Shown here: piece by piece, positions 5,135 through 51,248 of the stretch
Position numbering within the stretch: the stretch's first letter is position 1
How the letters are laid out: each line of letters opens with the position of its first letter
Origin: Candidatus Poribacteria bacterium
GTDB taxonomy: Bacteria > Poribacteria > DTPJ01 > WJIO01
Direction: 5' to 3'
NCBI GenBank assembly: GCA_014730235.1
Contig: WJIO01000329.1
Span: forward strand, 1-52,853
Length of the DNA stretch: 52,853 nucleotides
Program-made: the position numbers and the translations under genes
Notes under the pieces: model-generated
What the model saw: the letters and a program-made list of their open reading frames with translations, nothing else
Database searches by the model: none
What the model was told of the DNA's origin: nothing

Positions 5135-5944
5135 CTATATTCCCATAATGCCTGTGTACCATTTTATAAGTGGATTACCGAATAACAGGGATATTAAAGC
5201 TCCTAAAGCCAGGAATGGGCCAAAGGGAATTCGGCTGCCCATCTTCTTTTTGCTTGCTGATATTAGTATTACGCCGATTACAGAGCCGAAGACTGAGCCA
5301 ATTACTATTGTCAGGGGTATATGGGGCCAAAATCCTGTGTATATTCCAACCATACCCATGAGTTTTACATCGCCGCCGCCCATGGCCTGCTTGCGAAAGA
5401 TAGCACTGCCTGCAACTGCTATAACATATATTATACCTGCGCCGGTTACCATTCCCAGGATTCTAAAAGCTATTGGTTTATAGCTATTTGTTAATACCGA
5501 TGCGGCTATAGCTGATAATAAACCGAAAATAAGACCTGTCAGAACTATTTTATCAGGTATTATGTAAAACTCCAGATCTATAAATGTTATGGCTATTAAC
5601 AATGAAACAAAGAAGGCTGTGGTTATGAATTCAAGGATTATAAACTTAACTTCCTGGTGCATTGTCATGCTTCTAAGAAGCATGACAATGAAAAGGGCAG
5701 CGGTTATAATTTCCACAACCATATACCTTGGGGATATTGGCGCTTTACAATGGCGACATTTGCCCCGGAGAAATATATAGCTGAGGACAGGTATATTTTC
5801 CAGCGCGCTGATCTTATGCTGGCAGTTGGGACAAAAAGATCTGCTGGGTTTTATTATGGATATATCCCTGGGAATTCTGTATATACAGACGTTGAGAAAG
5901 CTTCCTACAGCTAAGCCCAGGATCACTGTAATGAAGTAGAACAT
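5135..5944 (-). CDS. pilD: Prepilin peptidase / N-methyltransferase (type IV leader peptidase)
   Basis: This 269-residue polytopic inner-membrane aspartic protease cleaves and N-methylates type IV pilin and type II secretion pseudopilin leaders. The cytoplasmic Zn-binding loop has two CxxC pairs (CPNCQHKI and KCRHCKAPISPRY). The two catalytic aspartates are in FIDLEFYIIPD and GGGDVKLMGMVG. About seven hydrophobic segments follow. It overlaps the upstream pseudopilin-like gene by 22 bp (5923-5944), so the two are coexpressed. Whether it serves a type II secretion system or pili cannot be told from this window, so the symbol is used generically (gspO is the alternative). Confidence 0.94.
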   Translation of the reverse strand: MFYFITVILGLAVGSFLNVCIYRIPRDISIIKPSRSFCPNCQHKISALENIPVLSYIFLRGKCRHCKAPISPRYMVVEIITAALFIVMLLRSMTMHQEVKFIILEFITTAFFVSLLIAITFIDLEFYIIPDKIVLTGLIFGLLSAIAASVLTNSYKPIAFRILGMVTGAGIIYVIAVAGSAIFRKQAMGGGDVKLMGMVGIYTGFWPHIPLTIVIGSVFGSVIGVILISASKKKMGSRIPFGPFLALGALISLLFGNPLIKWYTGIMGI

Positions 5945-6327
5945 CCTAATCCCATTTCCTTTGAAAAATTAAAACTTATTTCCTCTTCACCGTCAAACTC
6001 ATATGGATCGGGGGCTGGATCATCTTTTGGAATACCGACTTCCTGAGCTTCAAATTTAACCTGATATTTTCCTCCCCAGGGGTTAACCAGTTGCTTTTTA
6101 TCTATGTAAGGCCCCATCCAGCCTTCCAGGTTGGGATTTTTCAAAAGGTCGTTTATATCTTTACATTCCATACCAGTGTCATTTCGGTATCTGACCAACC
6201 CGTTTGCTATGGCCAATACATTAGCTTCAGTTTGGGTTATACGGGAAAGGCTTATATATCTGGGAACCGCTATGGCGGCTATGATTATTAACAGTAATAC
6301 AACAACAACGATTTTTATTTTTGCCAT
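5923..6327 (-). CDS. GspG-like pseudopilin without a recognisable prepilin cleavage motif
   Basis: This 134-residue protein begins MAKIKIVVVVLLLIIIAAIAV, a strong N-terminal hydrophobic helix, followed by a helical stretch (ANVLAIANGLVRYRNDTG) and LVNPWGGKYQVKFE. The last motif matches the D/N-P-W-G-x-x-Y of type II secretion major pseudopilins. The usual G-F-T-L-x-E leader cleavage site is absent: there is no G-F/M boundary and no glutamate at position +5. It is the first gene of the operon containing the prepilin peptidase. No good Shine-Dalgarno is visible, and a family B repeat ends 27 bp upstream of the start codon. It could be a pseudopilin-like membrane-anchored subunit that is not processed. 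Confidence 0.7.
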   Translation of the reverse strand: MAKIKIVVVVLLLIIIAAIAVPRYISLSRITQTEANVLAIANGLVRYRNDTGMECKDINDLLKNPNLEGWMGPYIDKKQLVNPWGGKYQVKFEAQEVGIPKDDPAPDPYEFDGEEEISFNFSKEMGLGCSTSLQ

Positions 6328-20098: not shown

Positions 20099-21832
20099 TT
20101 AATCTGATTTCTTAATGCTGCCCCAGGTGCTGAAGAGTTTTTCAGCAGGGGTAACAGGGGTTTCACCTACAATTGTCACAGCATAATCACTCATACCTTG
20201 AGTACCTGCAAAGTTTGTCTCTGTTGCGGTTGTCTGACCGTTAATGGGTATTGAATTCTGAGTTGCTTCATCCCCCCAGATGTAATTTAAAACATATTCA
20301 CCATCGGTAATCTGGATATTATCCACATAGACCCTGAAAACACCATTCATATGCTCATTGCTGTCTGTGGCTATCATAACACCATCTATAGTCTTACCGA
20401 CCAGAGGCTCCAGCGATATTTTGCGGTGATACCACATATCCCTGGCATACTGGCTTAAATCTGTGGCCGGATGTGCGCTCAGATCGTTCTGGTCAACAGC
20501 CCCTGAATCTCTGAGACTACTGCCGTCGCTGGTGTGCAAGTCTACAGTTCCTTTGAATGTGGGATTTCCTGAGAACATGGCAACCTGGAATTCCAGGAAC
20601 ATTCCGCTTTCAACCACTATTTCACCTGTCCATATGTCAATATAAGTGTGGCCGTGAACGTTGGCCTGGTCGTATGAAGCCTGAAGGGCAAGCATAGCAT
20701 CCCCGGGTGTATGCTCTTTCACAACTTCCGGACCTGCTGGGGTGACGACTTCAACACTGGCGACATTGACCAAAGGGGGCCCACCGTCAAGACCACCGTG
20801 CTGTTGAATACCATTAACAATAACCTTTTGATCGATAAACTGATCCAGCTCTAGTGTTGAGCTTTCCAGGGCATAGGCCAGAGCACCATCAACTATAAGA
20901 CCATGAGTTCCATACATAAAGGTTGTGAGCTCAAACTTGGTTAAAGTTCCTGTAGCTGATACAGCCGGGCCGTTGATTTTAATCATGGCTCCTGATGTAT
21001 TAACAGGTATATTATTAACGTCTTCATCTTCATCATATAAATCCGCTGATTCAAACGTAATTTCAGTATCATCTGTCATTCCCTGGACAGCAGTGAAGCT
21101 GATGTTGAATATTGCCCCGCTTCCAGCATCTGCACCAGTTACACTGGCCATTGATATGGATATACGACCCGGTTCACTGTCGTTAATAACAGGTGTTCCC
21201 GGGAGAAGGCCTGTAGCTGTAACCTCGACAACTGATAACATATTTTCACCATAAAGAATAACAAGGTCTGCGCCGGTAACTCCTTCAGCTTCGTCAATAT
21301 CCACAGTAACGGTGAATTGATCTCCGGCATTTACAGTGGCATCGCTTATTGTGAGATTTTTTGGCTCTGGAGCGGCAGAGGTAACAGTAACGCTTCCGTC
21401 TACTGTGGTTACATCAATATCGTCTATATTTTCATCAAACAGGAAAACATCTGAAAAAGCCAATTCGCTTGTTCCAGCAGCATCGGCCTTTACCTGAAAA
21501 TCAAATTCAAACATAGTTCCACTGCCCGGGTCCAGACCTGCACTTCCGGCCATGGCGGCGCTGATTTCTCCTGGTATGCCTGTGTTCCATTGTACCAGCA
21601 ATCCTGTCATTAGGTTAGTTGCTCTGGGATCTCCAACCAACTCCAGTATAGCTGGATCATAATTTATGGACAAATCTCCCCCGGCAATCCCTTCTGCTTC
21701 ATCTATAACCATTTCTACAACCAAAGCATCACCGGGGGCAGCCTCTAGTGTCGGCAAGCTAATTTCTACTGCATTGGTGCTCATGCAGGATACTATAATA
21801 AAAATTACAGCAAGACTAAAATGTAATTTCAT
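20099..21832 (-). CDS. Secreted protein with two cohesin-type domains and shared C-terminal KLxxxWxxIK motif
   Basis: This 577-residue protein has a signal peptide (residues 1-22, LAVIFIIVSCMSTNAVEI). Two cohesin-like beta domains cover about 23-152 and 157-290. Each has the pattern PGDALVVEMVIDEAEGIAGGDLSINYDPAILEL ... PGEISAAMAGSAGLDPGSGTMFEFDFQV in first-copy form. An OB-like region (about 292-368) follows, then a jelly-roll-like domain (about 375-545). The C terminus is EKLFSTWGSIKKSD, matching the tails of the LamG proteins at 24372 and 50481. AAGGAGG precedes the ATG. No dockerin is visible anywhere in the window. The role is inferred to be extracellular binding or scaffolding. Confidence 0.75.
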   Translation of the reverse strand: MKLHFSLAVIFIIVSCMSTNAVEISLPTLEAAPGDALVVEMVIDEAEGIAGGDLSINYDPAILELVGDPRATNLMTGLLVQWNTGIPGEISAAMAGSAGLDPGSGTMFEFDFQVKADAAGTSELAFSDVFLFDENIDDIDVTTVDGSVTVTSAAPEPKNLTISDATVNAGDQFTVTVDIDEAEGVTGADLVILYGENMLSVVEVTATGLLPGTPVINDSEPGRISISMASVTGADAGSGAIFNISFTAVQGMTDDTEITFESADLYDEDEDVNNIPVNTSGAMIKINGPAVSATGTLTKFELTTFMYGTHGLIVDGALAYALESSTLELDQFIDQKVIVNGIQQHGGLDGGPPLVNVASVEVVTPAGPEVVKEHTPGDAMLALQASYDQANVHGHTYIDIWTGEIVVESGMFLEFQVAMFSGNPTFKGTVDLHTSDGSSLRDSGAVDQNDLSAHPATDLSQYARDMWYHRKISLEPLVGKTIDGVMIATDSNEHMNGVFRVYVDNIQITDGEYVLNYIWGDEATQNSIPINGQTTATETNFAGTQGMSDYAVTIVGETPVTPAEKLFSTWGSIKKSD

Positions 21833-24371: not shown

Positions 24372-25166
24372 ATGAAGGTAAATATTAGTTTACGAATCTC
24401 TTTTATTTTGTTTCTCATTTTTTTACTGGTTAATACTTCTATAGCTCAGGAAATGGTAACTGATGGTCTGGTTAGCTTCTGGACAATGGATCAATCCGAT
24501 ACAACCGGTAATACTGCGAGGGACATGTGGGGAAGTAATCATGGGTCAATAGAAGGGAGTCCTGAAGTTGTTCCGGGTAAAATTGATGAGGCTTTGCTTT
24601 TCAACGGCGAAGATGATTTCATCGAAATTGACCACAGCGAAAGCCTTAATCTTGTTGATGCTATAACTATTGAATTCTGGTTCGTCCTTAAAGGTGACAG
24701 TCTGGAAAACGATTACCCACGCGTGGTAAGTAAAGGTCAATCAACCACTGATAATGGTGCTTACAGCGTTTGGGTCGGGGATGTTACTCTGGGAAATGAC
24801 ATCGGTTTCAGGTCTGTTACCCTGGCTCCCAATGACATTCGTTCCCAGGCTCTTCCCAATTATAATGACGATGCCTGGCATCATGTTGTTATTACTTATG
24901 ACGGAAGTCAGGGAAGGCTTTACCTGGATGGCGTAATGCACGTTGATATACCTGTCAGCGGCGATATAGCTGAGACAGATGAACCGCTTCATATTGGTGA
25001 TGGTAACAATGAGAGGCATTTCAACGGCATAATTGATGAGGTGCGCATATATAACAAAGCTTTAACTGAAGATGAAGTTATGCAGAATTTTAACGTCCAG
25101 TCAAACCTTCTGGCTGTGGATGCTGAGGGGAAATTGTCTACCACCTGGGCCAGAATTAAAAATTAA
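24372..25166 (+). CDS. Secreted LamG-domain protein with C-terminal KLxxxWxxIK motif
   Basis: This 264-residue protein has a signal peptide (residues about 1-25, FILFLIFLLVNTSIAQ). A single LamG/concanavalin-like jelly roll follows (LVSFWTMDQSDTTGNTARDM, ITIEFWFVLKG, DDAWHHVVITYDGSQGRLYLDG, FNGIIDEVRIYNKALTEDEV). It ends GKLSTTWARIKN, the same tail motif as the cohesin protein and the second LamG protein. LamG domains bind glycans or other proteins outside the cell. AGGAGG precedes the ATG, and the gene is close behind the TIM-barrel gene. Confidence 0.88.
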   Translation: MKVNISLRISFILFLIFLLVNTSIAQEMVTDGLVSFWTMDQSDTTGNTARDMWGSNHGSIEGSPEVVPGKIDEALLFNGEDDFIEIDHSESLNLVDAITIEFWFVLKGDSLENDYPRVVSKGQSTTDNGAYSVWVGDVTLGNDIGFRSVTLAPNDIRSQALPNYNDDAWHHVVITYDGSQGRLYLDGVMHVDIPVSGDIAETDEPLHIGDGNNERHFNGIIDEVRIYNKALTEDEVMQNFNVQSNLLAVDAEGKLSTTWARIKN

Positions 25167-36312: not shown

Positions 36313-39300
36313 TTACCATCCTTCGGCAACAATTTCCATACCCGATAGCACCGGCGGTTTTGATCCATTGGAGTTTTTCAGGTTTATCCTGAGATCACCA
36401 TCCACCATAACACCCTTAAATTCCTTTATCACAGGCTGACCAATTACGCCTTTAGTTTCCTTGACTATATCAAAACCATCCAGAACTTTTTCATCCTGAA
36501 GCAATACGCTAAACTTTCGCTGACCGGTTTTTATATCTTCAAATTCAGCAAAATAAAGACGCACTGTATAAGGACGCTCCTGGACGAAATCAGCTTCGGC
36601 CAGTTTTATGGATATTGAAGATGCCCCCATAATGCCTGAAGAAGCCACCCAGGGATAGGCTTTTTGGTTATTCTTGTCAGGAACAACCTTTGCCGAATGG
36701 TGATAGAATGTCTGGTAATCCTCCGGTTCGATGGCTACAGCAACAGTTGGCGATGGCCCGCCTGAAATTGGATATTCCAGCCATAAAATACCATCATCAG
36801 CCCGACGGTCACCGGGTGCACCCAGGTTGATTCCTACCGACTTGATTAATTCTCTGCCGCCCAGAAGAGTCTGGATTCCCTCACCTTCATTGATAGCAGA
36901 ATCCAGCTTAGTCATAATTTTATCCAGCTTATCACTCTCATCGGCTTTTGCAAACATGAGCATAATATTTTCAGGATCACCGTTTTGACCCATGATTACC
37001 TTTGCTGATAGATATGTCTCTATTGATGGACCATCTTTTCTGCCCATAACAACTTTACCCGACCATTCTCCGCTGCTCTGTAATCCCTGAATTAAAGACA
37101 CTGATTCTCTTCCCATCTGCCATACCTCAGGAACTGTTTTCCCAAGAATTTCCTCTGAATCTTCAAATTCCCACATTTTAAGTAGGGCTTTGTTAGCATA
37201 AGTTACTGAGCCGCTGGTACTGACCAGGGCCAGGGGTTCATTTGTCAACTGGACATCCGATGGACGGTTTTCCTCAAAGTAGTCCGTCCATATCTCAATA
37301 TCCGGCATGTGGATCATGGCCAGGGAAGATTGGTTCTGATAACTACATGAGCATGTACGGGTATAATCCGGGGCGTTCAGCAGGCCGTTTGCCACTATAA
37401 GGTTGGATGTGCAACTGGATTTAAATCCGCCGAAGTTCCCTGTGCCGCCATCCCGCATCAGGTCGTAAAATCCGGCAGCGGCAGAGCGGAAAGTAAGTAA
37501 GTATTCGCTGGCTATAGCATAGTTGCATCCATAGTTTCGCTGGAATATCCATGGTTCTTCCTCGCCGGTCAGAGGATCAACGCGCATGATCTGTTTGCCA
37601 TCCAGAAGGCTGTAAGCGTGACGGTCTGTGATGATAGTATCGCCATGAAGCATATAAGGGCCTCCTTCCGATGCTGTGTTACTCCACAACACATCACCGG
37701 TTTTGCCCCTGTATGCGATGATGCCCTTTTCCGGCTCTCCCCGCATCATATCCCTGGATTTTCTGCCTGATTGAAGCAGTATATCGTGTTCCTCTGAGTA
37801 GCTCAACCATGTTCCAAAAATATCTTTATTGGTGCTCCATACAACATCGCCGCTTTTAACGTCCAGGGCAAGGATTTTGTCGGGGTCAAAACGATACCTG
37901 CTGGGTCTTCTTTGCAGTGCTTCCTTTATGGGAATTGGCAGTGTATCGAGGCAGAATATCTTGCCATCACCGGCTATTACACCGTTATGCCTGAACCCCA
38001 GATCAGACTTGTGCGTCCATTTTACATCACCGGTATGACGATCCATTACAACCAGGTATTTGCTGGATGTTATATCGAAATCATAAAAGGGATGGTTCCT
38101 GCCTTTAAGATTAGGCGCGCCTATTTCATCCGGTTCCACCAGATCAAGGAAGCTGACGAAATCCGCACCAGCTATAAGGTAATCCCTGTATATGCCGATA
38201 TAACCCCAATCGGGATCTTCTCCGGTATCTGGATCTTTTGGCAGCCAGAATTCATCAATTGTCTTTCCTGTTGCAGGATCGAGAACCAGACAGCTTTTGC
38301 TCTTGGCGATATATAGCTTGTCTTTTGTGGCCACAAAGTTCGTACCCCTGGCATTTGCACCCGGAATATGCACCTGGTTGTATGCCGGACTGAGCGGCGT
38401 ATCCGCATACGTTTCATCGTAATAGACATTATATATGTCCATATCAGTGATTTCCCGTTTCCACAGCACCCGTCCTGTATATACATCTCTGGCGCTGAAA
38501 ACGTCTATACCTTCAATGAATAAACGCCCACCAATTATCTGTTCTGGTGGTCCGTGACCATGTCGGGGTAAAACGTCAGTGTTGGAGCTTCCGCCAAACC
38601 AGAGCAGGCCCAACGGCAGTTTCACCAGCTTATCGTCGGATTTTACTGTGTTAGCAATATCGCCGTATTGATGTGTCCAATCGGCTGATCCGGGAAGAGG
38701 GCCTTCTCTTTTAATGAGCATATAAGGTTCTGATGCTGTTGATTTTTCTATGACTAATTGAGCCAGTTTCATGGATTTCAACTGTTTTTCCAGCTTTGCA
38801 GAACTGCTTCCGTCAACGGATATGTAAACTATACCGCCGTAAGGCCTTACGCTTTTGTATATTTTCTTGAAAAATTCATCATCCTGCTCCCTGACTTTAT
38901 CCCCAAATACTGTCAAAGATGCCATGTATTCAGGAGTGGGGAAAGTTGCTGGATCGCCAACAAAAACGCTTAATCGCTTTCCATACAAACCCGACTGGAT
39001 GTAGCGATTGCGAAGTTTTTTAACCCTTTCAGGATCAGAGTCAACAGCGATAACCCGCAGGTCAGATTCTGAAACCAGGGCTTCAGCAATATTACCGTCT
39101 CCAAGACCATACAAAAGGCAGTAACCGTCTTTTATCCCTGTTGTTTCCAGAATGGATTTTGCCTTTGACATCGCCTCTTGGCTGATGTCGATTTTTTCCG
39201 GTTTGTATGCGTAAAATTTGGATTCTGTTTTATCAGCCCCAAAGGTGTAAATGTAGCCTTCAAGGGTAACTACAAACAGCTTGTTATCGGCGGCTATAAG

Positions 39301-40551
39301 TCTGGATGCTGTACCATCTATTTTTACCTGCCACTTTACCTCTGGTTTGCCTTTGCCTGCTGGGATTTCAATGGCTGAGACAATACCTCTGCCACCGGCA
39401 TAGAGCATTTTACCTGATTTTATCAGATCACCTGTTGCATCTACATTACATGACCACAACTCGTCAATTACCGTCCTTTTCTCCAAGACAGTCTTGGCTT
39501 TACCCTCTTTTTTGTCTACAACCAGACGTTTATTTTTTTCCTCAGTCTTTATGCTTTCCAGATCATAGGCTTTAACCTCGTCCCCTATAGAATATAACAT
39601 GTCGTTTGTCATTACCGGAACTTTACCAAATCGGGAAATCACAATATCCCCTGTAGCGATGTCATATATACTGGTTACATAATCCCTATGGTAATTGATG
39701 AAATATTTGTCCGAAGCACACACAAAGGCGCCGCCTGTTTTATTGTATCTGGAAAGGTGGTAATACAAAAGTTCGCCTGTATTAACATCGAAACATGCGG
39801 GAACAGATCTGCCGCATGGTATAAGCAGCTTATCACCGGAAATTACGAAAGTTCCCTGAGGAGCTACACCGGCATAAGAAGGCGAGTTATGGGGTTGTTT
39901 CATGTATATAGGTCCTGTGCTGTCATTTTCCCAAACTATATCACCTGTTTCAGCATCCAGGGCATAAATAAATATTCCCATGAAGGGCCATATGCCTGCG
40001 GCAAAGTAGATAACACCGTCTTTCAGAACAGGACCGCCCCTGGCAGGCCATGTAGAAACAAGTCTTTCATTACCAAGTATTTTACGGTCGCTGGGGCCTC
40101 CTTGGAATTTCCAGACAAGTTCGCCATTCTGGGCATTCAGGCAATATAAATGACCATCATCACTTACAAAGTAAACCCTATTGTTATGAGCTACGGCTGG
40201 AAAACGAACGGGGCCGGATGCGCAGTATGACCATTTTTCTTCACCTGTGTCAGTGTTTATGGCCACAAAGCGGTCGTTGGCGCTGGAACCCATAAACATA
40301 GTCTTACCCATAACAATCGGCTCGTTAACCCTGTCAAACTGCATTAAATCCCGGTTAAGGGGATTTTCCCATGCCTGGACAGACGCGGGATATTCCCGGA
40401 CCCATTGTAGATGTAGTTCTTCGGGAAGTTCCTGAGGTGATGCCGCGCTGCGGTTGGTATCATACCTCCACATGGGCCAATCATCGGCAATACACAATGT
40501 ATTTAAAATAAACAAGGAAAATACTATAAACGCCAGTAAAAAGCTTTTCAT
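36313..40551 (-). CDS. Giant secreted PQQ-type propeller with embedded methyltransferase-like, PAS and malectin-like domains
   Basis: This 1,412-residue protein has a signal peptide (1-22, SFLLAFIVFSLFILNTLCIA). A PQQ/BamB-like propeller to about 440 follows (DDWPMWRYDTNRSAASP, YCLNAQNGELVWKFQGG). A SAM-methyltransferase-like fold covers about 457-610 (LLYGLGDGNIAEALV, VIAVDSDPERVKKLR, VFVGDP). A second propeller half runs to about 1085 (GGRLFIEGIDVFSARDVYTG, APDYTRTCSCSYQNQSSLA). A PAS domain covers about 1100-1205 (EPLALVSTSGSVTYANKALL). Then come SVGINLGAPGDRRADDG and a malectin-like C terminus (YTVRLYFAEFEDI). The PQQ-methyltransferase architecture is known from Planctomycetes-type bacteria; the PAS insert appears novel. 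No catalytic role can be assigned. Confidence 0.8.
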   Translation of the reverse strand: MKSFLLAFIVFSLFILNTLCIADDWPMWRYDTNRSAASPQELPEELHLQWVREYPASVQAWENPLNRDLMQFDRVNEPIVMGKTMFMGSSANDRFVAINTDTGEEKWSYCASGPVRFPAVAHNNRVYFVSDDGHLYCLNAQNGELVWKFQGGPSDRKILGNERLVSTWPARGGPVLKDGVIYFAAGIWPFMGIFIYALDAETGDIVWENDSTGPIYMKQPHNSPSYAGVAPQGTFVISGDKLLIPCGRSVPACFDVNTGELLYYHLSRYNKTGGAFVCASDKYFINYHRDYVTSIYDIATGDIVISRFGKVPVMTNDMLYSIGDEVKAYDLESIKTEEKNKRLVVDKKEGKAKTVLEKRTVIDELWSCNVDATGDLIKSGKMLYAGGRGIVSAIEIPAGKGKPEVKWQVKIDGTASRLIAADNKLFVVTLEGYIYTFGADKTESKFYAYKPEKIDISQEAMSKAKSILETTGIKDGYCLLYGLGDGNIAEALVSESDLRVIAVDSDPERVKKLRNRYIQSGLYGKRLSVFVGDPATFPTPEYMASLTVFGDKVREQDDEFFKKIYKSVRPYGGIVYISVDGSSSAKLEKQLKSMKLAQLVIEKSTASEPYMLIKREGPLPGSADWTHQYGDIANTVKSDDKLVKLPLGLLWFGGSSNTDVLPRHGHGPPEQIIGGRLFIEGIDVFSARDVYTGRVLWKREITDMDIYNVYYDETYADTPLSPAYNQVHIPGANARGTNFVATKDKLYIAKSKSCLVLDPATGKTIDEFWLPKDPDTGEDPDWGYIGIYRDYLIAGADFVSFLDLVEPDEIGAPNLKGRNHPFYDFDITSSKYLVVMDRHTGDVKWTHKSDLGFRHNGVIAGDGKIFCLDTLPIPIKEALQRRPSRYRFDPDKILALDVKSGDVVWSTNKDIFGTWLSYSEEHDILLQSGRKSRDMMRGEPEKGIIAYRGKTGDVLWSNTASEGGPYMLHGDTIITDRHAYSLLDGKQIMRVDPLTGEEEPWIFQRNYGCNYAIASEYLLTFRSAAAGFYDLMRDGGTGNFGGFKSSCTSNLIVANGLLNAPDYTRTCSCSYQNQSSLAMIHMPDIEIWTDYFEENRPSDVQLTNEPLALVSTSGSVTYANKALLKMWEFEDSEEILGKTVPEVWQMGRESVSLIQGLQSSGEWSGKVVMGRKDGPSIETYLSAKVIMGQNGDPENIMLMFAKADESDKLDKIMTKLDSAINEGEGIQTLLGGRELIKSVGINLGAPGDRRADDGILWLEYPISGGPSPTVAVAIEPEDYQTFYHHSAKVVPDKNNQKAYPWVASSGIMGASSISIKLAEADFVQERPYTVRLYFAEFEDIKTGQRKFSVLLQDEKVLDGFDIVKETKGVIGQPVIKEFKGVMVDGDLRINLKNSNGSKPPVLSGMEIVAEGW

Positions 40552-43380: not shown

Positions 43381-46300
43381 CTAAATTTGAGGACGACCAG
43401 CATAACTTTCAGTCCTGAAGGTAGTCCACAGCTCTGATATGGTATCATAGCGGCACACCCCGCCGGAGAATGTGCCGAACCATACGTATTTACCGTCAAT
43501 AGCTATAGCTCTGACGTTATCATCAGCCAGACCGTCCCTGCTGGTGAAAATATCCCATATACCACCGGATTTGTCGTATCTGCTGACACCTCGATTTGAG
43601 CTTCCCACCCATATATATTTTTCATCAACGGTTATACAGCTTATATAATCGCTGGTCAACCCTTTGTCCTGATCGAAGAAATCCCACGTGCCGCTTTCGG
43701 TGTTATAACGATAAAGCCCTTTCCTTGTTCCTATCCAGATGTTTTTATTATCCGAAACCAACGCTGTGATCTTTTTCTCAGCCAGTTCCGCTGGAATATC
43801 TGTAAAATCAGCCACTTTCTTGTTTTTCACGCTGTATATACTCAGGCCCTTTTCCCTACCAAGCCACACGTTATCACCATCAACCAGGGCTGCTGTGATA
43901 TTCGTCAGCCCAATTCCCTCATTAAATTCTTCTTCTTTCTTATTGAAATAACCACCATCAGACGTTACTTCTTCCACGATCCCGGTATCTGATATGAGAG
44001 TCCAGGAGTTAAACGATCCTCCCCGATCAAATATTCCTATCCGGTCATCTGAAATGATCCAGGCTTTGTTCTCATGAACGTATATAGTTTTGATGTTGGT
44101 TATATTCCCGCTGTACCATACCAGTTCATCTCCCCCCATGTCATAGAAGTAAAGCCCCAGATCAGTACCAAGCCACAGGAAATTGCCCATAAGTGACATA
44201 CTTCTCAACACAGGATTTGTTGTAGCTGGCATCTGGCTTTCGGTGTTTATATCCCCGGTTTCGCTCTGTGTGGCAAGATTTCCCAGTATGTTCTGGATGT
44301 TAGAGTTAAGGTTACTTCTCTCCTGGAATATAGTCATACCATCAGGATTAGGCATACCAAGATGTATCTGCGTCCATTCTCCGTTTATCTTATCGTATCG
44401 GGAAAGCCCCTTTCGCGTTCCTACCCACAGGTAGTTTTCACTGGCGGCTAAGGATTTGATGTTGTAGCTGACAAGACCGGAGGTTTGCTCTTCGCTTCGG
44501 GCTGTAAGGGCTTTGCCATAGCTGATCCACTCTTTATTTACCGTGTCATACCGGGAAACCCCTGAATCTGTGCCGAACCACACATACTGCCCATCGATTT
44601 TTACATCCTGAACCTTATCACTGGCCAGTCCGTCTTCCTGGGTGTAATTTTCCGCTGTATCTGTTACTATGTCATAATGGGTCGTTCCGCCGTAAGTTCC
44701 GATCCATATTTCCTGTTCCAGCTTAACAGCATTTTTATCTAAAGTTACAATGTCAGAGCCTACTGCGGTAGAGGTATTGCCTGCCAGACCTTCTGCAATA
44801 GAAAAAGGTGTAAATGATCCCAGTTCCCTGTCGTAGATTGTAGTGCCGTTGGTTGTGTTAAAGAATATATATTTATCCTCAAAACCTACGGATAATACCA
44901 CGTTACTGGTCAATCCATCGCCTCTTTTGTATATGAGCCATATATCTTTTTCCGGTGTGTATCTGGCCACGCCGTTGTTTGTGGCAAACCACATGTGGCC
45001 GTTATCAACGGCAATATCCCAAACATGGTCATCCGGCAGGCCATTCAACATGGTGATCTTGTCCCATTTACCATCTTCCAGAAAGGTTGCACCGCTGTGA
45101 GTTCCCGCCCATATCTTACCATTAATTTTAATTAATGAAAATACTTTATTGGACGGCAAACCATCCTGACGGGTGTAGTTTGTCCATGTGTCTGATACCG
45201 TATCATATACGCTTATGCCGCTTTGTGTGGCTATCCACAGGTCAGGCCCGTCCAGCATCAAATCCCGCACATCAGGCCCTACAAGACCGTCATCAATGGT
45301 GTAGCTTAACCAGTTGTTGGTAAGCCTGTCATACCTGCTGATCCCGCCGCCTGTGCCGAAGTATATAAAATCCCTGTCACCTGCGATGGCATGCACGTTG
45401 CCATCCACCAGGGTGTCTGTGCTTCCCCTGCTTCTTGTGGGAGAATACACCCACCATGTACCGTCTGCCTTGTTGTACCTGTAAACGCCGCCATCTGTGG
45501 CAAACCACACATATTCAGGAGTATTCTTAATACCGTATATGTTGACCCTTGTTATACCTTCTGCATCCGATTCATCAAAGGTCTTGCTGTTTCCGTTTAC
45601 TGCGTTATAAAGACTGATTTCACCTCTGCCACCAAGCCATACATCGTCGCCATCTACAGCTATTGAGTAAAGCAGTTTATTCGTGTGGCTTTCCCAGACT
45701 TTGGTTTTACGATCCATAACGTTAAGACCAAGCCTTGTGCCTACCCAGATTTTTTTATCATCTAAATCTATGGAGTTAATTACGTTATTGCTTAATCCCT
45801 CTGCTGTTGTGTAACCATTCCATTTGCCTGTGGATTTGTCGTACCTGTTTAGACCTGCATTTGTGCCCACCCACACATAACCCGGATCTGCTGCTAAGGC
45901 ATTGATGCGGTTGTCCAGCAGGCCAAAGCTTGTGGAAAACGTCTCCCATACACCTGTGGTGTCGTCATACCTGTTTAGCCCTTCGTTTGTGCCCACCCAG
46001 ACGTATTTACCGTCTACAAGTATGCATTTTATGAGATTTGATGCCAGGTTTGACTTGACTGTATTGAAGTTATCCCATCCTTTTGTGGTTTTATTAAGTC
46101 TTGATACACCTTCGTCTGTGCCAAACCATACAAAATTCCCCACAACAGCTATGCTGAATACGTTGTTTCCGGCCAGACCTTCGTTACGTGTGTAGGTTTT
46201 CCAGCGTTCATTCTGTGGATTGAACCTGCTTACGGCCCCCCTTGTGCCGAACCATACACCGTCTATGTCTTCGGCTAAAGCTGTGACATAGCTGGATGGA

Positions 46301-47538
46301 AGGGCTTTTTCCATCTTAAAGCTTTTCCAGTTTCGCGTGTAGAGGTTGTAAGTTCCAAGACCGTGGGCCGTTCCAGCCCAGACTTCGCTTCCGATGGTGG
46401 CGATTGTTGTAACTTCATCGTCAATAAGACCGTTTTCCTTTGTGAAAATCTGTCTTTCGCCTACCCATGAGTCAAAGCGGAGCAAACCTTTGTTGGTGGC
46501 AACCCATGTCTCACCGGACCGGGATTTTACATCCAAGAAATTGTCGGTAACCTGGAATTTCTTAGCCCCCATGAGTTTCATGATGCTTATATGCCGCCAG
46601 CCCATGCCTTCCCATGCGTCACTTCTATCCCTGGCCATTTGCAGTAACGAGCTGGCCCTGGTTCCCCTATAATTAAATCGAGAGGTACGCGCAGTTCTGC
46701 GGGCCCTCCCTAATTTTCGATAGGCATTGCGCTCTGTCTGATAGCTTAATGATACACGACTGTCAAATTCTGCAAGAGCGCCTTTTGTGGCGATGTAAAC
46801 GTATCTGCCATCACCATCTATAGCGTTGATCCTGTCGTCGGGTATAGGCGAATCGTCGGTTTCTCTGGGGCCGCCTTCCGGGCTTAGCCATCGACTTCCG
46901 ATCCCTCTTATGTTGGTAAAATATTCCCATTTCTTGTACCTGTAGTTATAGCGTATAAGACCTTCGTATGTGCCGATCCATGCATAAGATGCCTGATGGT
47001 ATACAGCAGTAACCACAGTTGTTTTTATCTTTGGGAACTTTGTGTAAGTCTGCCATTTATTATCTTTCTTGTCATACACACTGACGCCTTTGTCTGTGCC
47101 GATCCACACGTCGTTACCCCGGGCTGATATGCAGTTTATCCTGTTGTATATCAGACCGTCTTTTTTGGTGTAACTTTTCCATGAATCAGTGGACTTGGTA
47201 TAAACTGACACCCCTGAATCAGTACCGAACCATACCTCATCGCCTGTGGTTGTGGTCAACAGCCCTTCGACTCTTTCCGGTGCAATGCAGTTTACCTGGT
47301 TGTTGATCAAACCATCGGATATGGTATAAAATTTCCACTGGTCGTTGTTACGATCATACCTGTTTACGCCTTTATCGGTGGCTATCCAGACATAATCCTC
47401 ATCCATTGCGATGTCCCACAGTTGGTTGCCAATGAGTATTTCTTTTGCTTCGTCCTCCTCTGCTTTGGATGTCTGGCAGAAGAATGATAAAGCTATGGTA
47501 AATGTAAGAATGAATACAGCAATTTTTTGTATTGGCAT
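43381..47538 (-). CDS. Giant secreted two-component-regulator-type propeller (Reg_prop) protein
   Basis: This 1,385-residue protein has a signal peptide (1-27, IAVFILTFTIALSFFCQTSKA). By eye there are 28 blade motifs of the form V-W-[IFV]-G-T-x-x-G-[LV]-[SN]-R-Y-D. They cover nearly all the protein, enough for four seven-bladed propellers. The histidine kinase and Y_Y_Y domains that accompany Reg_prop in Bacteroidetes hybrid sensors are absent, so this is a stand-alone extracellular propeller. GGGGGAG precedes the ATG. It is followed by the DUF4159 gene, suggesting a shared envelope function. Confidence 0.85.
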   Translation of the reverse strand: MPIQKIAVFILTFTIALSFFCQTSKAEEDEAKEILIGNQLWDIAMDEDYVWIATDKGVNRYDRNNDQWKFYTISDGLINNQVNCIAPERVEGLLTTTTGDEVWFGTDSGVSVYTKSTDSWKSYTKKDGLIYNRINCISARGNDVWIGTDKGVSVYDKKDNKWQTYTKFPKIKTTVVTAVYHQASYAWIGTYEGLIRYNYRYKKWEYFTNIRGIGSRWLSPEGGPRETDDSPIPDDRINAIDGDGRYVYIATKGALAEFDSRVSLSYQTERNAYRKLGRARRTARTSRFNYRGTRASSLLQMARDRSDAWEGMGWRHISIMKLMGAKKFQVTDNFLDVKSRSGETWVATNKGLLRFDSWVGERQIFTKENGLIDDEVTTIATIGSEVWAGTAHGLGTYNLYTRNWKSFKMEKALPSSYVTALAEDIDGVWFGTRGAVSRFNPQNERWKTYTRNEGLAGNNVFSIAVVGNFVWFGTDEGVSRLNKTTKGWDNFNTVKSNLASNLIKCILVDGKYVWVGTNEGLNRYDDTTGVWETFSTSFGLLDNRINALAADPGYVWVGTNAGLNRYDKSTGKWNGYTTAEGLSNNVINSIDLDDKKIWVGTRLGLNVMDRKTKVWESHTNKLLYSIAVDGDDVWLGGRGEISLYNAVNGNSKTFDESDAEGITRVNIYGIKNTPEYVWFATDGGVYRYNKADGTWWVYSPTRSRGSTDTLVDGNVHAIAGDRDFIYFGTGGGISRYDRLTNNWLSYTIDDGLVGPDVRDLMLDGPDLWIATQSGISVYDTVSDTWTNYTRQDGLPSNKVFSLIKINGKIWAGTHSGATFLEDGKWDKITMLNGLPDDHVWDIAVDNGHMWFATNNGVARYTPEKDIWLIYKRGDGLTSNVVLSVGFEDKYIFFNTTNGTTIYDRELGSFTPFSIAEGLAGNTSTAVGSDIVTLDKNAVKLEQEIWIGTYGGTTHYDIVTDTAENYTQEDGLASDKVQDVKIDGQYVWFGTDSGVSRYDTVNKEWISYGKALTARSEEQTSGLVSYNIKSLAASENYLWVGTRKGLSRYDKINGEWTQIHLGMPNPDGMTIFQERSNLNSNIQNILGNLATQSETGDINTESQMPATTNPVLRSMSLMGNFLWLGTDLGLYFYDMGGDELVWYSGNITNIKTIYVHENKAWIISDDRIGIFDRGGSFNSWTLISDTGIVEEVTSDGGYFNKKEEEFNEGIGLTNITAALVDGDNVWLGREKGLSIYSVKNKKVADFTDIPAELAEKKITALVSDNKNIWIGTRKGLYRYNTESGTWDFFDQDKGLTSDYISCITVDEKYIWVGSSNRGVSRYDKSGGIWDIFTSRDGLADDNVRAIAIDGKYVWFGTFSGGVCRYDTISELWTTFRTESYAGRPQI

Positions 47539-50480: not shown

Positions 50481-51248
50481 CTATTTATTCTTGATTTCCG
50501 ACCATTTTGTCGCCAGCTTATCCAAAGCTGATACGGGATTCAGGCCATAATCCAGACCCTGATTCATTATTTGTTGAATTTCTTTAGCGGACAGGGCTTT
50601 GTTGAATATCCCTACTTCGTCCAAAATCCCCAGCATGGGGTGTGCGCTTTCCATGTCACCGAAGGTCATGGGTTTGTCAACTGCATCGGGTGGACCATCA
50701 TATTGGCTTTCATTTTCCATATTGCCATCTACATAAATCCTCAGGTTTTCCAGATCATAAGTTCCCGCTATATGATGCCATTTTTCATCGGTGATTTTTG
50801 TGGTGGCATCAATCCCTCTCCACTGGGAAGCGCCCTGAGTGAAATATAAACTGACACTACCACCGTTAGCCGGGGTTTGAAAATCGAAATTCCTGATAGA
50901 ACCACCGGCTTTCGCCACTGGGATCTGCCAACCAGCAGTTGTTCCCATCTTGCACCAGTAGACAATAGTGAAAATTCCAAGATTAAGGTCCTGGTGATGT
51001 GGAACTTTGACATAATTTCCGGATACTCCGGGAAATTCCAATCCTTTGCCAAATTTCCCTTCAACCCATTTCACATCACCTATGACTTCACCGTGATGTT
51101 CATTTCCGGAAAAGTCCTCAGCTATATCCGCGTCCTCTTCCTCAAAAAGCCATATACCTATAACGGTATCCGGATTTATGATGGCATAAGCTGGAACTGT
51201 AAATAATATGGTAATAAAAATTAAGAATACTATGAACAAAAATCTCAT
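50481..51248 (-). CDS. Secreted LamG-domain protein with C-terminal KLxxxWxxIK motif
   Basis: This 255-residue protein has a signal peptide (1-22, FLFIVFLIFITILFTVPAYA). It has one LamG jelly roll (IGIWLFEEEDADIAEDFSGN, FTIVYWCKMG, DEKWHHIAGTYDLENLRIYVDG, GILDEVGIFNKALSAKEIQ). It ends DKLATKWSEIKNK, matching the tails at 20099 and 24372. AAAGGAG precedes the ATG. It is a paralogue of the 24372 gene but not closely similar in the core. Confidence 0.88.
   Translation of the reverse strand: MRFLFIVFLIFITILFTVPAYAIINPDTVIGIWLFEEEDADIAEDFSGNEHHGEVIGDVKWVEGKFGKGLEFPGVSGNYVKVPHHQDLNLGIFTIVYWCKMGTTAGWQIPVAKAGGSIRNFDFQTPANGGSVSLYFTQGASQWRGIDATTKITDEKWHHIAGTYDLENLRIYVDGNMENESQYDGPPDAVDKPMTFGDMESAHPMLGILDEVGIFNKALSAKEIQQIMNQGLDYGLNPVSALDKLATKWSEIKNK

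Follow-up and report, generated by a model that had tools for sequence, protein, structure and literature searches.

Many exported proteins of Poribacteria carry one and the same short tail at their C terminus, and its description as a modular terminal tag that is specific to exported proteins is well supported. As read from its sequence, this tail comprises about 16 amino acids and has no predicted transmembrane stretch, cysteine motif or Ig-like domain. Its consensus is about [APS]-V-[EDS]-[PAS]-x-[GD]-K-L-x-T-T-W-[GAS]-x-I-K ([AP]-V-[ESD]-[PAS]-x-[GD]-K-L-[AST]-[TS]-T-W-[GAS]-x-I-K in the matches from the window's own genome), or roughly V-E-P-x-G-K-L-A-T-T-W-G-x-I-K, and in the genome that supplied the stretch of DNA analyzed here (52,853 nucleotides, hereafter the window) it is found on ~140 proteins with 0-7 residues between the tail and the stop codon. 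The initial annotation of the window had given the consensus as K-L-x-[ST]-[TK]-W-x-x-I-K at 0-3 residues from the end; the core of that pattern holds, while the spacing is wider and the conserved block longer than was proposed.

Three proteins in the window have the KLxxxWxxIK tail, just as had been reported. The first is a LamG (Laminin_G_3) secreted protein of 255 amino acids at 50481..51248 on the minus strand (PF13385, E=1.6e-27, together with a structure model), with signal peptide MRFLFIVFLIFITILFTVPAYA at 51183..51248 (-) and, at 50484..50546 (-), the tail plus a short upstream linker NPVSALDKLATKWSEIKNK, in which the core KLATKWSEIK occupies 50490-50519. The second, also a LamG secreted protein, is 264 amino acids long and lies at 24372..25166 on the plus strand (PF13385, E=8.2e-28), with signal peptide MKVNISLRISFILFLIFLLVNTSIA at 24372..24446 (+) and its tail with upstream linker, LAVDAEGKLSTTWARIKN, at 25104..25163 (+), the core being 25131-25160. 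The third is a secreted protein of 577 amino acids at 20099..21832 on the minus strand that contains two cohesin domains (PF00963, E=2.2e-26), located at 21383..21769 (-) and 20993..21355 (-); its signal peptide MKLHFSLAVIFIIVSCMSTNA is at 21770..21832 (-) and its tail with upstream linker, ETPVTPAEKLFSTWGSIKKSD, at 20102..20167 (-), with the core at 20111-20140. These proteins end in DKLATKWSEIKNK (LamG, 50481-51248), EKLFSTWGSIKKSD (cohesin, 20099-21832) and GKLSTTWARIKN (LamG, 24372-25166), and the signal peptides attributed to all three can be recognized both by eye and by hydropathy. They had also been described as three unrelated proteins, which does not stand for the window, where there are only two fold classes because LamG occurs twice, but does stand across the phylum, where the tail is found on at least seven unrelated folds.

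The window also codes for other proteins of the export and secretion type. An exported protein of 1,412 amino acids at 36313-40551 (-) has an odd mix of PQQ/BamB-like propeller, methyltransferase-like and PAS-like segments, and shows neither the tail nor a match to a C-terminal domain (CTD) of the type IX secretion system (T9SS). A second exported protein, of 1,385 amino acids at 43381-47538 (-), is apparently made up nearly entirely of propeller repeats; it has a partial match to PorZ and is without the tail. In addition, adjoining genes at 5135-5944 and 5923-6327 (-) code by eye for a prepilin peptidase-like protein and a GspG-like pseudopilin, so this genome may also have a type II secretion system or a type IV pilus.

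Conservation of the tail is strong among proteins that are only ~20-30% identical overall. Among 170 distinct tailed proteins from all of the loci that were read, the tryptophan is present in 170 of 170, the terminal lysine of the core (K10) is lysine in 168 and arginine in 2, and the valine at position -4 is present in 162. This valine is also found in 60 of 61 tails from the window's genome even though it lies outside of the search pattern. All six leucine codons and all four valine codons are used in the tails of the 170 proteins, and this free variation of synonymous codons indicates that selection acts on the tail peptide. The tailed proteins range from 203 to 577 amino acids with a median of 259. 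Four more PD40-propeller proteins, in a sample of another Poribacteria genome, G037, that is described below, have a tail lengthened by one residue, such as PVAPQPQLLTTVWGEIKSKK; three tandem PD40-propeller genes at L234:2169-5216 (+) have a tail with one extra residue between its proline and tryptophan parts.

The statistics on the tail rest on whole-genome searches and on sampled stretches. When the back-translated core KL...W..IK was searched against the window's genome (5.53 Mb, 451 contigs) there were 69 matches versus 10 for a reversed-pattern control. For core matches located in real open reading frames of this genome, the stop codon follows 0-5 residues past the core in all cases, and 55 of 55 full-length core-bearing reading frames have a hydrophobic N-terminal signal sequence. 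An unbiased sample was taken from G037, a genome from another Poribacteria family, by using 20 evenly spaced stretches of 20 kb (400 kb, 343 predicted proteins) that were scored with a matrix trained on the window's genome alone. Eight proteins scored >10, as compared to a best score of 9.7 among 1,715 shuffled proteins, and all eight matches are 2-7 residues from the C terminus with none internal. Specifically, the tail is present on 7 of 81 signal-peptide-like proteins versus 1 of 262 others (Fisher p = 2e-4), and even the lone exception has a stretch of hydrophobic residues near its N terminus, which was missed because the chosen start is too far upstream. Overall, 151 of 153 full-length tailed proteins pass an N-terminal signal-sequence score, which relies on hydropathy with no trained predictor, and the remaining two resemble signal peptides by eye. 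Anchoring at the C terminus, enrichment among signal-peptide proteins and occurrence above the shuffled level, all of which followed from the earlier proposal, are thus borne out. A lipoprotein reading of the tailed proteins was rejected, given that a lipobox-like site is found in just 4 of the 153.

The tail is also distributed throughout the phylum, for which a search of related candidate-phylum genomes had been proposed. The window is placed in Poribacteria by the chorismate synthase encoded near its start, whose best named match, at 65% identity, is that of Candidatus Poribacteria bacterium SpSt-970. The strict core was found in 84 of 84 Poribacteria genomes examined, representing 21 genera, and in most of these it is many-fold over the control. 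The strict core is seldom seen in family f4 (0-5 matches versus 0 in the control), where the tails show conservative swaps of K to R, I to L and L to M; loss of the tail from this family was considered and rejected, as LamG proteins of the f4 genome G003 carry it with arginine for lysine and leucine for isoleucine. A tail profile of 21 positions gave 141 matches in the window's genome, at least 150 in the single-contig G037 genome and 89 in Candidatus Poribacteria bacterium SpSt-970, nearly all of which are within reading frames of 200-320 amino acids. Among 29 genomes from outside of Poribacteria (Neomarinimicrobiota, Nitrospirota, Ignavibacteriae, Bacteroidetes, Chloroflexi, Omnitrophota and others, a set not targeted at the closest sisters of the phylum), the core pattern was not above control and the profile found nothing at E <= 0.05.

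The main domains that bear the tail are mostly sugar-binding folds. Domains were assigned for a set of 102 carriers drawn from several genomes, which yielded 65 LamG, 5 PD40, 2 Kelch and 5 cohesin proteins, as well as 5 proteins with a 3-keto-disaccharide hydrolase domain, 4 with CBM9 and 1 with F5/8 type C, with many lacking any match; one further tailed protein is an M12-like metalloprotease. The spread over different main domains that had been noted extends, across the phylum, to at least seven unrelated folds. Conversely, when small LamG proteins were picked by domain regardless of the tail, 27 of 27 were found to carry it. An AlphaFold2 model of the LamG protein at 50481-51248 has a core with pLDDT >95, a poorly ordered linker (residues 238-240 <50) and a helix at residues 245-254, while the model of a tailed PD40 protein has a confident propeller followed from residue 300 by a low-confidence tail with a short low-confidence helix at 313-319. 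As modeled, the tail thus lies outside of the folded domain in both proteins. Despite the predicted helix, an amphipathic-helix model is unsupported because the helical hydrophobic moment of the core is not above that of its own shuffles (0.296 vs 0.308). When the LamG model was used as a query for similar folds, the matches were generic lectin domains of the ConA/LamG-like type, among them an arabinanase module and toxin binding domains; the resemblance is one of fold only and carries no implication of toxicity.

On genomic grounds, the earlier reading of the tail as a sorting, secretion or surface-attachment signal is supported by its C-terminal anchoring, its restriction to proteins with signal peptides, its phylum-wide presence, its absence from the other lineages searched and its occurrence on unrelated folds. 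We lean, with modest confidence, toward the tail being a modular C-terminal targeting tag for Sec-exported proteins that acts as a short segment docking to a common envelope receptor. Specifically, the protein would leave the cytoplasm by Sec and have its signal peptide cleaved, after which the terminal segment, short and bearing the invariant tryptophan and the conserved leucine, isoleucine and lysine residues, would dock into one common envelope receptor. We infer a single receptor that reads the tryptophan-centered segment because of the invariance of these residues. Docking would then fix the destination of the protein, which is most likely the outer membrane or the cell surface.

The leading candidate for the receptor is T9SS-like outer-membrane machinery, with a SprA-like translocon and with PorV-family paralogues as possible shuttles. 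In that case this machinery would read two classes of signal, the type A CTD of larger proteins and the short tail. From our analysis, assignment of the receptor to this machinery is plausible though tentative. It was reported that TIGR04183 tails are present in Poribacteria while structural genes for the secretion system are missing (Kamke et al. 2014, PMC3909097). In our searches a SprA/Sov-like reading frame was found in 8 of 8 Poribacteria genomes as colinear pieces, with a length of about 2,000-2,300 amino acids where it is intact; that of the window's genome scores 182 bits relative to a cut-off of 200, and two of these reading frames when scanned gave E=9e-54 and 1.7e-41. SprA/Sov-like reading frames of ~2,200-2,300 amino acids, at a single locus per genome, were located at L204:8644-15534 (+), which is from the window's genome and contains a LysM-like segment, L205:7873-14733 (-) and L206:7540-14142 (+). 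PorV-family proteins above cut-off occur in 8 of 8 genomes tested (G000, G001, G003, G004, G007, G016, G023 and G037) with 13-25 matches each; this family is greatly expanded, with several copies located next to genes for C25 peptidases and CTDs (G000:C26 is one such case). C25 peptidases of the PorU kind are also present in 8 of 8 genomes at 2-5 per genome, and type A CTDs number 26-78 per genome across eight genomes. The presence of SprA-, PorV- and PorU-like genes reopens the puzzle raised in 2014 of T9SS-type tails in Poribacteria without secretion genes. Since SprA, PorV and C25 are in every genome tested, they show no co-variation with the tail and provide no discrimination, and by a rough count from listed coordinates PorV genes are not nearer to tail genes than expected. 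A further opposing point is that one genome labeled as Bacteroidetes and one labeled as Ignavibacteriae, groups known to use T9SS, are without the tail.

The endings of cohesin proteins also bear on how the tail may function. When ten cohesin proteins from outside of the window were scanned, five scored on TIGR04183 at their C terminus (four above the 23-bit cut-off and one at 22), four were tailed with no match to any NCBIfam family, and one ended in a dockerin. A cohesin module thus bears either the tail or a T9SS type A CTD, which suggests that the two endings are interchangeable and have similar jobs. In a T9SS context there are also cohesin-dockerin architectures, as L257:610-2520 and L268:595-2499 each combine cohesin, dockerin and a T9SS-type CTD in one protein, which also has either leucine-rich repeats or a trypsin-like protease.

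A somewhat doubtful alternative as to the receptor is a separate Poribacteria localisation pathway, whose dedicated receptor would have no relation to sortases, cohesins or the shuttles of the T9SS and through which each cell would route exported proteins numbering about a hundred or more. The main rival to a targeting tag, which we regard as unlikely, is that the tail is a docking tag and not a secretion signal, with the proteins reaching the surface by other means and the tail then binding a surface scaffold like a miniature dockerin. This would fit with carriers being mostly sugar-binding folds, and with the tail of the cohesin protein, which would itself hold dockerin partners, being where a classical anchoring scaffoldin would bear its anchor. 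Dockerins too serve at C termini in Poribacteria: several long proteins (L226, L224, L233, L237 and L205) end in dockerin-like repeats (DVNGDGxVNILDLVxVA), and these repeats constitute a third terminal class alongside the tail and the CTD. However, the G003 genome has the tail but contains no cohesin, indicating that the tail is independent of cohesin-dockerin assembly.

Less probable still is a role of the tail in retention, whereby it would keep proteins in the periplasm, bound to peptidoglycan or to the periplasmic side of the outer membrane. The LysM-like segment in the SprA-like protein of the window's genome is in line with such a role, as are the lack of a transmembrane anchor in the tail and the scarcity of lipoboxes (4 of 153 carriers), but the cohesin, reprolysin-like protease and lectin folds of the carriers are typical of extracellular proteins, and an outward destination is also suggested by the exchange of tail and T9SS CTD among cohesin proteins. 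It is very improbable that the tail reflects descent only, in which case a single expanded LamG family would have acquired a C-terminal extension long ago and spread it by duplication, with no targeting role. About two thirds of the carriers are indeed LamG proteins, many in tandem pairs; against this are the at least seven unrelated folds, the one-residue insertion in the tail of the PD40 family, and the selection on the tail that is evident from an invariant tryptophan and synonymous codon diversity at such low overall identity. Finally, a chance or compositional artefact has a negligible probability, being countered by the reversed-pattern, shuffled and outgroup controls with nothing found in its favor.

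Poribacteria are abundant, uncultured symbionts of sponges, and their contact with the host is thought to involve secreted sugar-binding and repeat proteins. The tag occurs in every genome, and profile searches of well-covered genomes place it on roughly 90-150 proteins, which provides a sequence handle on much of the exported proteome and tells which proteins travel together. Furthermore, the tryptophan-centered terminal peptide is a putative binding site that could be used to fish for the receptor.

When compared with known terminal signals, the tail is unlike LPXTG, PEP-CTERM and the T9SS CTD, as had been suggested, with no model match found. No model in Pfam or NCBIfam covers it, and tails searched alone against NCBIfam matched no family, although HMMER is weak on such short queries; a weak match to the Pfam WSK motif (E=0.011, two members) was judged to be chance. 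The literature on secretion, sorting, T9SS, cohesin and dockerin in Poribacteria likewise contained no description of the tail that we could find. Microcompartment encapsulation peptides have cytosolic cargo, unlike the tail, whose carriers have signal peptides; as to an amphipathic helix, the other trait of such peptides, a helix is predicted for the tail but its helical moment equals that of shuffled tails. PEP-CTERM/exosortase, GlyGly-CTERM/rhombosortase and LPXTG/sortase systems resemble the tail in being C-terminal, in following a Sec signal peptide and in their many-to-one logic. Their signals, and those of MYXO-CTERM, have a transmembrane segment and a basic tail. The columns of the Poribacteria tail contain no hydrophobic stretch and only 0-7 residues follow the core, so its layout differs from that of LPXTG, PEP-CTERM, MYXO-CTERM and GlyGly-CTERM. 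MYXO-CTERM (PMC11980579) is a precedent for a short C-terminal tag that is universal in one phylum and found on dozens of surface proteins; it is tripartite with an invariant cysteine and is processed by an intramembrane protease, whereas the tail has no cysteine motif or hydrophobic stretch. Dockerin type I (PF00404) is, like the tail, a short C-terminal docking module of secreted proteins that is present in Poribacteria, but it consists of ~60 amino acids of Ca-binding repeats, features that the tail lacks, and PF00404 does not match the tail.

The closest comparison is with the T9SS. In Flavobacterium, CTD classes are read by separate shuttles, with PorV for type A and PorP/SprF-like proteins for type B, so that one translocon serves a second C-terminal class with its own shuttle (PMC12618676). 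The type B CTD (TIGR04131) is ~100 amino acids long with five motifs and its genes are often linked to the shuttle gene, whereas tail genes are dispersed and the tail itself is short; neither the tails nor whole tailed proteins matched TIGR04131 in NCBIfam. Like the tail, the T9SS type A CTD (TIGR04183 / PF18962) follows a Sec signal peptide and forms the very end of many secreted proteins that are otherwise unrelated; the two endings occur together in genomes and share a type of carrier domain (cohesin). The CTD differs in being a ~70-90 amino acid Ig-like domain (PMC12618676) that ends in GxYfy...r.m.i.k, while the tail has no beta-sandwich, and in being carried by mostly longer proteins, with tail carriers being mostly 200-350 amino acids; TIGR04183 had no match among the tailed cohesin proteins. 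On the preferred explanation, the tail does the work of a T9SS CTD without being one. Sorting-type tags at the C terminus are a known kind of signal, and this short class, seen in one phylum only, appears to be new.
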